A DNA stretch of 64,000 nucleotides from Hyphomicrobiales bacterium (lineage in GTDB: Bacteria > Pseudomonadota > Alphaproteobacteria > Rhizobiales > Beijerinckiaceae). A program made the position numbers and the translations under genes. The stretch is from contig CAKNFJ010000001.1 in assembly GCA_930633495.1 (NCBI GenBank), positions 2,477,001 to 2,541,000 of the forward strand, given 5' to 3'. Below the pieces are notes generated by a model. That model made no database searches. It was not told where the DNA came from and was given only the letters and a program-made list of their open reading frames with translations. Shown one piece after another: positions 1,499 through 24,147 of the stretch (position 1 is the first letter of the stretch; each line of letters starts with the position of its first letter).

Positions 1499-1684
1499 CT
1501 AGCGCGCTTTCGCCCGGACCGGAATCACGCATTCGCGCGCCGGGCCGGGTTCCGCCTCGGGCCGGCTTGTCCACCGGCATGGGGAGCAATGTGGACAACC
1601 CGGGTTTCGCCGGGGCGCCGGGCGCGCGTCTGTATAACCCGCCCCGGCCATCAACAGCCCCCATACTGTGCATGGTTAAGGAAG

Positions 1685-1700
1685 TGTTTCACGTGAATCA
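1685..1700. promoter_or_regulatory. parS: parS-like ParB-binding site
   Basis: TGTTTCACGTGAATCA matches the bacterial parS consensus TGTTTCACGTGAAACA at 15 of 16 positions. It sits inside the putative origin, about 8 kb from the parAB genes. ParB encoded at 9954-10841 would load here as a CTP-dependent clamp. Centromere sites close to the origin are normal for chromosomal ParABS systems. Confidence 0.8.
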
Positions 1701-1737
1701 TTTCGCCGTCCCGGAAGGGTCGACGGATTCCGATCCG

Positions 1738-1752
1738 TTAACAAAGCCTTAA
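1738..1752. promoter_or_regulatory. CtrA-type binding site
   Basis: Perfect full CtrA box: TTAA (1738-1741), seven bases, TTAA (1749-1752), followed by C as in the consensus TTAA-N7-TTAAC. In Caulobacter, CtrA bound at such boxes in the origin represses initiation. This one lies in the same place between ppsR and hemE. A half-site TTAA also occurs at 1676-1679. Confidence 0.65.
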
Positions 1753-1856
1753 CGACCTGGCTGCCGATCGTGGGCCCGCGACCTGCTGTCCCACCGGCTG
1801 TGGAACGGTTGTGGACAGAATTGTGGCGGGCTATCTCCCCCGTCCAAGAGTCAAAG

Positions 1857-1883
1857 AAAGAGATTCTTTCATACAATCTCTTT
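1857..1883. repeat. Inverted repeat in AT-rich segment before hemE
   Basis: AAAGAGATT (1857-1865) and AATCTCTTT (1875-1883) are perfect 9-bp inverted arms with a 9-base spacer. They lie in the only AT-rich stretch of the gap and end just before hemE. They could mark the unwinding element or be an operator for hemE. Nothing in the sequence decides between these. Confidence 0.5.
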
Positions 1884-1899
1884 TATGAGAGGACACGGG

Positions 1900-6566: not shown

Positions 6567-8456
6567 ATGTCCATTCATCAGCAGCACTACGACGTGATCG
6601 TCGTCGGTGGCGGCCATGCCGGAGCCGAGGCCGCCGCGGCTTCGGCGCGCTACGGCGCGCGCACCGCGCTCATTACGCATAAGCCCGAAACCGTCGGCGT
6701 CATGTCCTGCAATCCGGCGATCGGTGGCCTCGGCAAGGGCCATCTCGTGCGGGAGATCGATGCGCTCGACGGGGTCATGGCCCGCGCCGCCGATCTCGGT
6801 GGCATTCAGTTTCGCATGCTCAACCGGCGTAAGGGCCCGGCAGTCCGGGGCCCCCGTACCCAGGCCGACCGGAAGCTCTATCGCCAGGCGGTGCAGGATC
6901 TCTTGGGCCAGCAGACAGGGCTCGATATCGTCGCTGGCGAGGTCTTCGATCTCGCTATCGAGGCTGGGCGGGTGGTGGGGGTCGTTCTCGCCGATGGCCG
7001 CCGATTCGGGACCGGAACGGTCGTGCTTACGACCGGGACCTTTCTGCGTGGACTGATCCATATCGGTGAGACGAGGATTCCGGCGGGCCGTGTCGGCGAG
7101 GAGCCTTCGCTTGGTCTTTCGGCGACGCTGGAACGCCACGGCTTTCCGCTCGGGCGACTCAAGACCGGCACCCCTCCCCGGCTCGATGGCCGCACCATCG
7201 ATTGGGCTTCGCTGGAGATGCAGCCCGGCGATGATCCGGCCGAGCCTTTCTCCGCGCTGACCGCGGCTATCACCAATCCGCAGATCTCCTGCGGGATCAC
7301 GCGGACGACGCTGGCGGGCCACGAATTGATCCGCGCCAATCTGCACCGGGCGCCGATGTTTTCCGGACAGATCGAAGGGCGTGGCCCGCGCTATTGTCCT
7401 TCCATCGAAGACAAGGTCGGGCGCTTCGGCGATCGCGACGGCCACCAGATCTTCCTGGAACCGGAAGGTCTCGACGACGACACTGTCTATCCGAACGGAA
7501 TCTCGACCTCGTTGCCGGAAGACGTTCAGCTCGGGTTGTTGAAGACGATTCCGGGCCTGGAACGCACTACGATGCTGCGGCCGGGCTATGCGATCGAGTA
7601 TGATTTCATCGATCCGCGCGCCCTGAAGAATACGCTGGAGACGCGTGCCATCGCCGGTCTTTTCCTGGCCGGGCAGATCAACGGGACGACCGGTTATGAG
7701 GAGGCGGGGGCGCAGGGATTGCTCGCGGGCCTCAATGCTGCGCGTGTGGCCGGGAACACGGAACCGGTGGTGCTGGACAGGACGCAATCCTATATCGGCG
7801 TGCTCGTCGACGATCTGGTGACGCGTGGCGTTACGGAACCGTATCGAATGTTCACGTCGCGAGCGGAGTTCCGCCTGTCGCTGCGTGTGGATAACGCCGA
7901 TGAGCGGCTGACCGATCTAGGAGCGAAGCTCGGCGTGGTCGGCTCGGCCCGGCAGGCGGCTTTTGCGACGCGGCATGGCCAGATTGCAGCGCTGCGCGAG
8001 GCGCTCCAGAATCTGTGGCTGACCCCCCGGCAAGCGGAAGCGGTCGGTTTGCAGCTCAATCAGGACGGTTTGCGGCGCAGCGCCTACCAAATCCTGTCCT
8101 ATCCGGATATCGGCTTCGAGCGACTTGCTGCGATCTGGCCTGAGTTGTCGGGATATTCGGCTCCTGTTCAGGCGCGCGTGACGGCGGATGCGGTCTACGC
8201 CGTATACCTCGATCGGCAGGCGTCTGAAATTCAGGCCTATCGCCGGGACCAGGCGCTGAAAGTGCCGGCGGAGCTCGACCTCGATGCCATTTCGGGCCTG
8301 TCGAACGAGCTCAAAGCCAAGCTCGCAGCGCAGCGCCCGGCTGACCTTGCGCAGGCCGGCAAAATCGAGGGAATGACGCCGGCTGCTTTGGCGCTGCTGG
8401 CGGCTCACGCGCGGAAGAACCGGAATCTGGCTTCGTTATCCACAGGATCGACGTGA
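6567..8456 (+). CDS. mnmG: tRNA modification FAD enzyme MnmG (GidA)
   Basis: MnmG (629 residues), the FAD-dependent partner of MnmE in wobble-uridine modification. The N-terminal dinucleotide-binding motif is [16 protein letters not shown]. The family blocks [31 protein letters not shown] and [17 protein letters not shown] are all present. I chose the ATG at 6567 to match the usual N-terminus. A TTG at 6516 with AGGGA six bases upstream is a real alternative that would add 17 residues. The 3' end carries a perfect DnaA box and overlaps rsmG by four bases. Confidence 0.96.
8436..8444 (+). promoter_or_regulatory. Perfect DnaA box in the 3' end of mnmG
   Basis: TTATCCACA matches the E. coli DnaA-box consensus exactly. 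It lies in the weakly conserved C-terminal codons of mnmG, 57 bases before the perfect parS. One such site per window can arise by chance, so its role is uncertain. Confidence 0.5.
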
Positions 8457-9096
8457 CTGTTGAAAAGACCGACCGTCAGCGCGCTTTGCGCTTGACGCCT
8501 GTTTCACGTGAAACAGAGGAGCGCCTGGCGCTGCTCGTGGCGGAACTCGAGCGCTGGCAGGCGGCGAAGAATCTGGTGTCGTCCACGACGCTGGCCGATG
8601 TCTGGACGCGCCATATCGCCGACTCGCTCCAGATCTTCAGTCTTGCCCCCGACCGGCAGCGCTGGCTCGATCTCGGTTCGGGCGGCGGCTTTCCGGGGCT
8701 GGTGATCGGGATCTGCCTGGCGGAGCGAGGCCACGGCCAGATCGATCTCGTCGAGAGCAATGCCCGCAAATGCGCTTTTCTGCGCCATGCCGCCCGGATC
8801 ACCGGAGCGCCGGTGAAGGTTCATGCCGCGCGGATCGAGGATGTGATCGGGGATTTCACCGGCAAGGTCGACGTGGTGACGGCCCGGGCGCTGGCTCCGC
8901 TGACGCAGCTGCTGGATTGGTGCGAAGAGCTGTTGAGAACAGGCACTCTGGGACTCTTTCCCAAGGGACAACATCTAGATGCGGAATTGACCGACTCGGC
9001 CAGATATTGGAAGATTCAGGCGACAACGGTTTCCTCCGTGACTGACGATGCCGCGCGAGTCCTGATGGTCCGCTCGGCCGAGAGACGAGCCGATCC

Positions 9097-9100
<4 letters not shown>
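8453..9100 (+). CDS. rsmG: 16S rRNA (guanine-N7) methyltransferase RsmG
   Basis: RsmG/GidB (215 residues) methylates N7 of a guanine in the 530 loop of 16S rRNA using S-adenosylmethionine. The SAM-binding motif is [15 protein letters not shown], followed by [14 protein letters not shown]. The N-terminal VSRETEERL is typical. Translation starts at GTG 8453, whose bases overlap the mnmG stop (GTGA), and the stop overlaps the parA start (ATGA). This implies translational coupling through mnmG-rsmG-parA. Codons for PVSRETE embed a perfect parS. Confidence 0.95.
8501..8516. promoter_or_regulatory. parS: parS centromere site inside rsmG
   Basis: TGTTTCACGTGAAACA is a perfect 16-bp palindrome and an exact match to the parS consensus bound by ParB. 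It is read through as codons for part of the N-terminus of RsmG. It lies 0.6 kb before parA and 1.5 kb before parB. Confidence 0.95.
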
Positions 9101-9927
<827 letters not shown>

Positions 9928-9953: not shown

Positions 9954-10841
<888 letters not shown>

Positions 10842-21486: not shown

Positions 21487-24075
21487 TCATTCGTCGTGCT
21501 GGTTCTGGGTCTCGACCAGGATCTCGCGTTTACCTGCGTGGTTGGCGGGTCCGACGATGCCCTCGTTCTCCATGCGCTCCATGATGGATGCGGCGCGGTT
21601 GTAGCCGATCTGGAGGCGGCGCTGGATGTAGGAGGTCGAGGCCTTCCTGTCGCGCAGCACGACCGCGACCGCCTGCTCGTAGGGGTCGTCGGAATCGACC
21701 GCACCCATGCCGGTCTTGTCGAAGACGGCGCCGTCCTCGTCCTCGGCGCCCTCCTCCTCCTCGGAGGTGACGGCGTCGAGATATTGCGGCCGGCCCTGCG
21801 TCTTGAGATGCGCCACCACCTTCTCGACCTCGGCATCCGAGACGAAGGGGCCATGGACGCGGGTGATGCGCCCGCCGCCGGCCATGTAGAGCATGTCGCC
21901 CTGGCCGAGCAGCTGCTCGGCGCCCATCTCGCCGAGGATGGTGCGGCTATCGATCTTCGAGGTGACCTGGAAGGAGATGCGGGTCGGGAAGTTCGCCTTG
22001 ATCGTGCCGGTGATGACGTCGACCGAGGGGCGCTGGGTCGCCAGCACGACATGGATGCCGGCGGCGCGCGCCATCTGGGCGAGGCGCTGGATCGTGCCCT
22101 CGATCTCCTTGCCGGCGACCATCATCAGGTCGGCCATCTCGTCGACGATGACGACGATATAGGGCAGAGGCTCGAGGTCCATGACCTCCTCCTCGTAGAT
22201 CGCCTCGCCGGAATGCTTGTCGAAGCCGGTCTGGACCGTGCGGGTGATCACCTCGCCGGCGGCCTTGGCCTCCTGGACGCGGGCGTTGAAGCCGTCGATG
22301 TTGCGCACCGAGAGCTTCGACATCTTCTTGTAGCGCTCCTCCATCTCGCGCACCGCCCATTTGAGGGCGACGACCGCCTTCTTGGGGTCGGTGACGACCG
22401 GGGTGAGCAGATGCGGGATGCCGTCATAGACGGAGAGTTCCAGCATCTTGGGATCGACCATGATCAGGCGGCATTCCTCGGGCTTGAGCCGGTAGAGGAT
22501 CGACAGGATCATGGTGTTGATGGCGACGGACTTGCCCGAGCCGGTGGTGCCGGCGACGAGCAGATGCGGCATGCGCGCCAGATCGGCGATCACCGGCTCG
22601 CCGCCGATGGTCTTGCCGAGGCAGAGCGCGAGCTTGTGCTTGGTCGCCTCGAAATCCTGGCTGGCGAGCAGCTCGCGCAGGAAGACGGTCTCGCGGCGGG
22701 CATTGGGCAGTTCGATGCCGATCGCGTTCTTGCCCTGCACCACCGCAACGCGCGCCGACACCGCGCTCATCGAACGCGCGATGTCGTCGGCGAGAGAGAT
22801 CACGCGGGACGACTTCGTCCCCGGGGCGGGTTCGAGCTCATAGAGCGTGACCACGGGCCCGGGCCGGACCTGCGTGATTTCGCCGCGCACGCCGAAATCC
22901 TCCAGTACGCCTTCGAGCAGCGTGGCGTTCTGCTCCAGCGCATCGGTCGAGACCGCGTTGGCCGCGATCTTCTTCGGCTCGGCGAGATAGGTCAGCGGCG
23001 GCAGCTCGAAGGTTTCGCGGTCGAGAAGCGAGGGCTGTGCCTCGCGCTGCATGCGCTTGCCGGGCTTCGGCGCGGCGCGCGGCATGGCGACGCGGGGTGC
23101 GTTGAGGTCGCGTAGATCCTGCGGCTCATCGTCGAGATCGAAGGGAGCGTCGATTTCGTCGGGGCTTCGGCCGCTCACGGCCGGGCGGGCACCGGGGAGC
23201 GGCTCGGGGTCGAATTCAGGGAGGCTGCGGCGGGCGGCGGGCGCGGCACCGAATTGCGGTTCGCGCCGGATGCGCCCGTTGGCGTCGGAGGGGACCAGGC
23301 CGGCATCGACCGCGGGCTCGGGCGGCTGCGGCAGGCGCCGGAGGATCGCGGCGCGCAGCGCCATGGCGCCATGGGCCAGCCAGCCGATCAGGATGACGGT
23401 CAGGCCGGGTTCGTCGTCGCGGCGCTCCTCGCCATCGGACCAGCTGTCCTCGGCCTCGTCGGCATCGAGCGCGGGATCCTCGTCGGTGACGAAGCCGAAG
23501 CCGGCAGCCGCCGTCACGGCGAGGATTGCGATGCCGGCATAGAGGAAGCCGACGAGGCTGCCGACGGCGCTGCCGGCGATTCCGGCGATGTTGCGCGTGC
23601 CGAAGAGCAGGCCGTCGCCGACGACGCCGCCCATGCCGGTCGGGAGCGGCCAGCGCGGGGTCGCGGGCAGGGCGCTGGCGACGGCGGCGGCGGCGGCGAT
23701 GCCAACGACCCAGAGGCCGAGCTTGAGCGCGCCGCGGTCGAACAGGTGGAAGCGAATCAGCCGCAAGGCCCAGATCATCGGCGGGAACAGCAGTGCGATG
23801 ACGCCGAGGCCGATGAGCTGCATCAGCAGGTCGGCGACCATGGCGCCGGGGCGCCCGAGCCAGTTGCGGACCGCGCCGCTGGTGGCGTTGTTGAGGCTCG
23901 GGTCGTCGACCGACCAGCTGGCGAGCGCGATCGCGAAGGCGACCGTCAATGCCAGCAGCCCGAGCCCGGTCAGCTCCGACGCGCGGCGCGACAGGAAGTC
24001 GCGCACCGGGTCGGGCAGGCGGTCCATGAGCGATTGGGAGCGGCGAATGGTGCGCATGCGGCTTCGGGTCTTCAA
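21487..24075 (-). CDS. ftsK: DNA translocase FtsK
   Basis: FtsK (862 residues), the septal DNA pump that clears chromosome termini and activates XerCD. Order: four to five transmembrane helices (about residues 35-205), an acidic/proline-rich linker (about 210-370), the motor domain with Walker [13 protein letters not shown] and Walker [14 protein letters not shown], and the C-terminal gamma winged helix ([20 protein letters not shown]). The linker is short compared with E. coli FtsK. A second Met at codon 7 is an alternative start. A CtrA-type box lies about 60 bases upstream. Confidence 0.96.
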
Positions 24076-24131: not shown

Positions 24132-24147
24132 TTAAGACCCGCTTAAC
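24132..24147. promoter_or_regulatory. CtrA-type box upstream of ftsK
   Basis: TTAA (24132-24135), seven bases, then TTAA (24143-24146) and C: an exact TTAA-N7-TTAAC match, 57-72 bases before the ftsK start on the opposite coordinates. CtrA drives several division genes in alphaproteobacteria, so cell-cycle control of ftsK is plausible. Confidence 0.6.

Follow-up and report, generated by a model that had tools for sequence, protein, structure and literature searches.

A putative hemE/ppsR-type chromosomal origin in a Bosea-like Beijerinckiaceae, with an embedded parS-like site that overlaps a candidate CcrM target

In Caulobacter crescentus, the chromosomal origin of replication (Cori) lies between hemE and a COG1806 gene and is described as harboring binding sites for DnaA, CtrA and IHF (PMC1914354, excerpt). 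A consensus sequence for parS has been reported (PMC7383237, excerpt), and the spreading of Caulobacter ParB from a parS site placed in E. coli has been described as extending up to about 2 kb (PMC5815017, excerpt). On chromosome 2 of Vibrio cholerae, ParB spreading affects binding of the initiator (PMC6399470 and PMC6090056, excerpts). With regard to methylation, GANTC methylation at the Caulobacter parS locus is reported to be unchanged upon over-expression of methylases (PMC5172544, excerpt), which suggests to us that the GANTC sites of that locus are shielded.

Here we report on a 64-kb stretch of DNA (termed the window, by which the whole of the analyzed stretch is meant; C1:2,477,001-2,541,000) from a genome of 5,944,473 bases in three contigs, of which contig C1 comprises 5,142,540 bases. 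The organism is taken to be Bosea-like because contig C2 shows, in its first 12 kb, a match to a Bosea sp. ANAM02 plasmid around repC (23% coverage, 83.9% identity) and because the closest named hemE locus is that of a Beijerinckiaceae MAG (81%). From the features set out below we consider it highly likely that the window contains the main-chromosome oriC of this Bosea-like member of the Beijerinckiaceae, that this origin is of the hemE/ppsR type and that it carries an embedded ParB nucleation site overlapping a CcrM site.

Position and flanks of the putative origin

The putative oriC is a gene-free gap of 401 bp at positions 1499-1899 (C1:2,478,499-2,478,899), which an earlier note on this DNA had placed between ppsR and hemE. 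Both assignments hold, each with a family model above its cut-off: ppsR, coding for the PEP synthase regulatory protein (DUF299/COG1806), occupies positions 635-1498 on the minus strand (NF003742, 343 bits, cut-off 225), and hemE, coding for uroporphyrinogen decarboxylase, positions 1885-2952 on the plus strand (TIGR01464, 393.5 bits, cut-off 303). Translation of hemE may start at the ATG at 1885 or at that at 1900, the latter being preceded by the better ribosome site as judged by eye. To the right of the gap the genes follow in the order hemE, a UPF0093 gene that we take to be hemJ-like, rho, mnmE, mnmG, rsmG, parA and parB. A search of positions 1200-2200 against Rfam (E 0.5) returned no RNA element in the gap.

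GC skew was sampled in 39 stretches (767 kb, about 15% of contig C1) and in the window, divided into four pieces, for a total of 43 segments. The best one-step fit to these segments has its change point at 2,480,000, where the mean passes from -0.014 to +0.034. When cumulated with interpolation, the skew is lowest at 2,475,000 and highest at the contig edge. The minimum is thus found at the gap, where it would have to be if the gap is the replication origin, as the earlier note had proposed. Replication might conceivably begin elsewhere, for instance near dnaA (at 2,241,748, about 237 kb from the gap), the gap being a remnant, and the noise of the skew, slightly positive in 6 of the 23 segments left of the window and in two of these at 2.30-2.36 Mb, leaves some room for this reading. 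However, the step fit and the cumulative minimum both fall at or beside the gap, and 2.24 Mb is absent among the best skew fits listed, so that we give an origin elsewhere next to no credence. Skew alone places the origin only within some tens of kb, and it is the conserved location and the motifs that narrow it to the gap. A hemE-COG1806 gap, a skew minimum, a cluster of DnaA-like boxes and a CtrA box, which are among the marks of a hemE/ppsR-type oriC, are found here, and judging from them the ppsR-hemE gap is very probably the chromosomal oriC.

As a separate observation on the genome, the DnaA-ATPase model yields nineteen matches, 18 on contig C1 and one on contig C2, all in the same 285-aa open frame. 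One checked DnaA-ATPase match (L022) corresponds to an IS21-type IstB ATPase, and the nineteen-copy frame is probably an expanded insertion element.

Within the genus, hemE was found in all 61 genomes searched, own genome included, and 54 ppsR-hemE gaps were used, that of the window among them. The seven that were dropped comprise one in which the contig ends in the gap (L206) and six (L207-L212) with a ppsR only 65-72% identical, which look like another sublineage. In the other 53 genomes hemE is 74-85% identical to that of the window in 51 and 57-58% identical in two (L204 and L205, from genomes G076 and G108). In both of these, ppsR is 88-89% identical over the part retrieved and the oriC block is retained, and it is possible that hemE was replaced there beside a fixed origin. 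The family sample comprised 57 genomes of other genera and yielded 42 clean gaps, 6 genomes being set aside because hemE had no match in the fetched stretch and 9 because no ppsR was adjacent. Finally, 80 named loci were considered, of which 43 gave a gap.

Replication-control motifs in the gap

Three DnaA-box-like 9-mers are present in the gap: TTGTCCACC at 1567-1575 on the plus strand, with two mismatches to TTATCCACA, TTGTCCACA at 1590-1598 on the minus strand, with one, and CTGTCCACA at 1810-1818 on the minus strand, with two. A poorer box, TTATACAGA, lies at 1629 on the minus strand, likewise within two mismatches of TTATCCACA, and no exact TTATCCACA occurs in the gap. The DnaA-box-like 9-mers claimed in the earlier note are therefore real as near-consensus boxes sharing the core TGTCCAC, none of them exact. 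This core occurs five times in the 64 kb of the window and three of these occurrences are inside the 401-bp gap (P 2e-6). When the gap was resampled 2000 times (first order), three DnaA cores were never obtained, a CtrA box arose in 4 and a parS with up to three mismatches in 2. In the genus, the core TGTCCAC/GTGGACA is present in 48 of the 54 gaps, and for the box at 1590-1598 a counterpart of the form TGTGGACAA or TGTGGATAA is found upstream of parS in 42. The TGTGGA core columns of the box at 1810-1818 are at least 98% conserved, against 44-74% for its other columns, and the hemE-proximal box is complete as TTGTGGACA in 25 of the 54 gaps.

The note had also reported an exact CtrA box and an AT-rich end with an inverted repeat, and both are confirmed. 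The box, TTAACAAAGCCTTAA at 1738-1752, conforms exactly to TTAA-N7-TTAA and is one of only two such sequences in the 64-kb window. In the genus, an exact box is present in 51 of the 54 gaps and begins 51-64 bp beyond the parS start. A second box is present elsewhere in one of these 51 gaps, and the three remaining genomes (G103, G111 and G115) present a degenerate box only. Exact boxes are likewise found in 29 of the 42 family gaps, against 0.12 expected from resampling, in 6 of 42 named gaps (L045 left out), against 0.28 expected, and in two of the six gaps of L207-L212. The genome encodes CtrA (profile match 424.8, cut-off 350). The other exact box of the window, at 24132-24146, is located just upstream of ftsK (21487-24075, minus strand, Pfam FtsK domains), which is a possible CtrA-controlled cell-division gene.

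AT content is 63% in the last 45 bases of the gap, as opposed to 39% in the rest. The AT-rich stretch at 1841-1884, a putative unwinding element, contains an inverted repeat with 9-bp arms (1857-1865 and 1875-1883) and a GATTC at 1862-1866. Inverted-repeat arms of at least 6 bp occur in the last 60 bases of 40 of the 54 genus gaps, as opposed to 31 of 270 shuffles. The remaining 14 gaps lack the end repeat, and the sequence of the repeat varies. Together with the skew change point and with CtrA, CcrM and ParB being encoded in the genome, the conservation of these motifs in the 54 genus gaps supports the replication origin that the note had suggested, and the gap might be called, in its words, a compact control node.

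A parS-like site overlapping a GANTC sequence

As the earlier note stated, the gap contains a 15/16 parS: the variant TGTTTCACGTGAATCA at 1685-1700 departs by a single mismatch from the consensus. A perfect palindromic parS, TGTTTCACGTGAAACA, is found at 8500-8515, within rsmG (gidB; 8453-9100, plus strand), where it codes for VSRET. Next to rsmG are parA (9097-9927, plus strand), which codes for a ParA/MinD-type ATPase with family matches below the curated cut-offs, and parB (9954-10841, plus strand), which codes for a member of the ParB/Spo0J/Noc family (TIGR00180, 187.6 bits, cut-off 58; the Noc model scores higher than TIGR00180, yet below its own cut-off). These two are the only parS-like sites with up to three mismatches in the 64-kb window and the only ones with up to two in the whole genome of 5.94 Mb. 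The site in the gap has the features of a putative chromosomal parS, as it matches TGTTTCACGTGAAACA, is located at oriC and has parAB at a distance of about 7-9 kb. Its distance of about 190-200 bp from both start codons would also suit a site for some other regulator of ppsR or hemE, with ParB uninvolved. Against this stand the agreement of 15 of its 16 bases with the ParB consensus and the fact that the genome has just one further copy (up to two mismatches), namely the perfect parS of the parAB-adjacent rsmG, and we hold a role for another regulator to be highly improbable.

The sole departure of the putative oriC parS from the palindrome, an A-to-T change, creates a GAATC in its right half (1695-1699), that is, a GANTC and a putative CcrM target. 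This GANTC, which goes beyond what the earlier note had pointed out, is invariant across the genus. The genome encodes a CcrM: it contains a single RAMA-domain match, a domain that among 14 control genomes was matched in Caulobacter only, and the gene product aligns with the solved CcrM structure PDB 6pbd (E 1e-164), scoring 615.7 bits with NCBIfam NF050803, below the cut-off of 830. GANTC is scarce in the genome at large, with 1237 occurrences in the 767 kb sampled (1.6 per kb) as opposed to the 2340 predicted from base composition. The gap holds five (12.5 per kb), as opposed to a resampling mean of 1.6 (P 0.02).

The 18-mer TGTTTCACGTGAATCATT, which comprises the parS-like site and reaches position 1702, occurs in all 54 genus gaps, exactly once in each and in one common orientation, beginning 197-222 bases before the hemE start (extrapolated from the ATG at 1885 of the window). 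All 18 columns are 100% identical, and the 20 columns on either side average 46% identity to the window. One half-site of the oriC parS, TGATTCAC, is accordingly asymmetric and invariant in 54 of 54 gaps, and the symmetry of parS must be regarded as typical and not strict, since 195 of the 397 genomes sampled from the order have asymmetric sites of the same kind. A parS within one mismatch is present somewhere in 60 of the 61 genus genomes. Among the matches listed, every genome has both the perfect site and the variant, with the exception of G098, which is outside the 54. In ten more perfect parS sites of the genus, picked by hand, the site always lies in a frame coding for LTPVSRET, as in rsmG of the window.

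Beyond the genus, a parS-like site (up to three mismatches) is present in the gap in 2 of the 42 family genomes, both belonging to genus g6 and both with GGATTCACGTGAAACA, and in 3 of the 43 named gaps. Of the latter, L045 carries the same block as the window, and L081 and L085, which are counted as one lineage (hemE 82% identical, same block), carry TGTTTCACGTGAGTCA. Such a site is absent from the other 40 family gaps, from the other 40 named gaps and from all six gaps of L207-L212. Since these gaps lack one, a parS in the gap is not needed for a hemE/ppsR-type origin. All three lineages with a parS-like site in the gap have a GANTC at the equivalent half-site position, and the half-site can be read as TGANTCAC, with N = T for the genus and for g6 and N = C for L081 and L085. 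In L081 and L085 the block TGTTTCACGTGAGTCATT directly adjoins a CCACAA motif and both continue with TT, as in the genus. An extended motif, with ATT outside the GANTC half, is invariant in the genus and present in L081 and L085. As a general feature this extension is only weakly seen, the nearest base being A in 28 of the 70 distinct GANTC-type sites listed, which include those of the window, L045, L081 and L085.

Related sites were observed at other places. Four Phyllobacterium and Brucella/Ochrobactrum loci (L096:11132, L103:11099, L107:11099 and L115:11099) provide a further overlap of centromere and methylation site next to the origin, in that they have the GANTC-type parS variant TGTTTCACGTGAATCC some 100-120 bases beyond the point where the hemE match stops. 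Six genomes from other genera of the family (L213-L218) carry TGATTCACGTGAAACA about 2.6-3.3 kb upstream of hemE, in three of them (L213, L214 and L217) inside a frame that resembles coaE by eye. In family f44 of the order sample (e.g. G366, G262 and G463), three GATTC-type parS are arrayed about 40-60 bases apart.

The composite of parS and GANTC is thus invariant across one genus and also present in this gap in two further lineages. It is tempting to speculate that it constitutes a methylation-gated centromere in oriC, with ParB reading or hiding the CcrM mark of the origin parS. Initiation would turn the oriC parS hemimethylated until CcrM returns late in the cycle, ParB occupancy at oriC would differ between just-fired and licensed origins, and this difference would help to couple segregation with once-per-cycle initiation. 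We advance this gating as a tentative possibility, to which we give well under an even chance. A live rival is that the A-to-T change is simply a variant which the ParB of Hyphomicrobiales accepts or favors in one of the half-sites, the GANTC arising as a by-product without methylation meaning, because GANTC-type parS are common in the order, including outside oriC, and absent from the 48 genomes of other orders. In particular, GANTCACGTGAAACA occurs, at whatever position in the genome, in the 195 genomes of the order mentioned above, and 23 of the 26 GANTC-bearing parS-like sites of the named loci lie outside the gap. The GANTC pattern is present in 19 of 38 genomes from within the order, in 6 of 213 genomes of other classes and in none of 48 genomes belonging to the class but to other orders, the last being a count without a denominator, since it covers GANTC-type sites and neither ordinary parS nor CcrM, though CcrM is reported to be conserved in most Alphaproteobacteria (PMC3973325, excerpt). 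The trait is distributed along with the order and not with the class as a whole, and it may reflect a property of Hyphomicrobiales ParB, the order being judged from the named relatives to be Hyphomicrobiales. The presence of CcrM alone as the driver of GANTC-type parS is weakened by the same zero count, ordinary parS being uncounted there.

The GTVTC control, GTVTCACGTGAAACA, also exists, in 4 of the 397 genomes of the order with one site each, and two further GTCTC sites were found (G015 and G055). GACTC occurs at least eight times among the order matches listed, with 11 more in the scan of the order, other orders and other classes, and N is only T or C among those order matches. At the level of lineages the two differ little, with about five for GACTC and four for GTVTC. 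Simple tolerance is, on the other hand, less easily reconciled with an asymmetric base that is the same in all 54 genus gaps, the other parS of the genus being a perfect palindrome among the matches listed. The same holds for the pattern of change in 89 parS-like sites (up to two mismatches) from 33 of the 80 named loci, in which the T at position 3 of the half-site is replaced by A in 26 cases and by C or G in none, and position 4 differs in four cases, always together with an A at position 3. A point against ParB loading at the oriC parS is that a change at position 3 may weaken binding, because H. neptunium ParB is described as losing its binding to TGCCTCACGTGAAACA, in which positions 3 and 4 are both changed to C (PMC6650430, excerpt). 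On balance, tolerance by ParB seems to us a serious contender, though somewhat short of an even chance.

The conserved base might alternatively serve an overlapping DnaA box, since TGATTCACG, on the minus strand, resembles TTATNCACA. DnaA is reported to bind the parS region of Caulobacter (PMC6399470, excerpt), and the CCACAA motif abuts the site in L081 and L085. Yet it is in these same loci that TGACTCACG loses the T at position 4 of the DnaA box and keeps the GANTC, which disfavors a DnaA overlap and makes it an unlikely explanation.

Proposed working and comparison with known systems

Based on motifs, conservation and the known system, DnaA would occupy its boxes at either side of the gap and open the AT-rich stretch next to hemE, and phosphorylated CtrA would repress firing from the single exact box. 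ParB would load on the mid-gap parS and slide over oriC, where DnaA and CtrA would act within the same 250 bp. With ParB over oriC, the partition complex would include the origin itself, and sister centromeres would exist from the very start of replication. The CcrM target in the half-site, if methylated at all, would become hemimethylated upon replication of the origin. Replication, methylation and segregation of the chromosome may in this way be tied together at one spot, with initiator, repressor, centromere and methylation sites within about 250 bp. The arrangement touches on two open questions, namely the coupling of replication initiation with segregation and the role of CcrM methylation at origins. 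Since the centromere and methylation sites share bases that are fixed in the genus, a single base-pair change would allow both questions to be addressed.

The locus is best described, as far as its sequence goes, as an ordinary kind of origin that would contain an unusual and strictly conserved composite parS-CcrM element. The origin type itself is known, and what appears new is a centromere embedded in a hemE/ppsR origin and fused to a CcrM site. Among the matches listed, the titles and abstract starts of open-licence PMC articles mention no GANTC-bearing parS inside a chromosomal oriC, a prior description being possible, and the exact strings GATTCACGTGAAAC and TTTCACGTGAATC had no match in the open-licence PMC literature.

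Several described systems share some of these features. The repABC modules, such as pAMI4 3parS and ori2 of A. tumefaciens, resemble the locus in having GANTC close to parS (PMC9040568 and PMC11514494, excerpts), but they are of the plasmid RepABC type and, in the excerpted parts of these sources, GANTC is near parS and not inside it. With chromosomal ParABS systems the gap shares a site with 15 of 16 consensus bases, parAB at some 7-9 kb, a ParB gene and the perfect site in rsmG, whereas its own parS is asymmetric, bears an invariant GANTC in one half and is set between DnaA-like boxes. The rctA/parS2-ori2 region of V. cholerae chromosome 2 likewise places a centromere among replication-control sites (PMC6399470 and PMC6090056, excerpts), but it relies on the unrelated initiator RctB and belongs to a secondary chromosome, as opposed to DnaA and CtrA on a main chromosome here. 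The likeness to Cori of C. crescentus extends to the flanking genes, the DnaA and CtrA sites and the AT-rich stretch (PMC1914354, excerpt). Cori is described as having five CtrA boxes in the same source, as opposed to one exact box here, and the Caulobacter parS lies about 8 kb from Cori (PMC6399470, excerpt), whereas in the Bosea-like chromosome one putative parS is inside the origin and a second is about 6.8 kb away.
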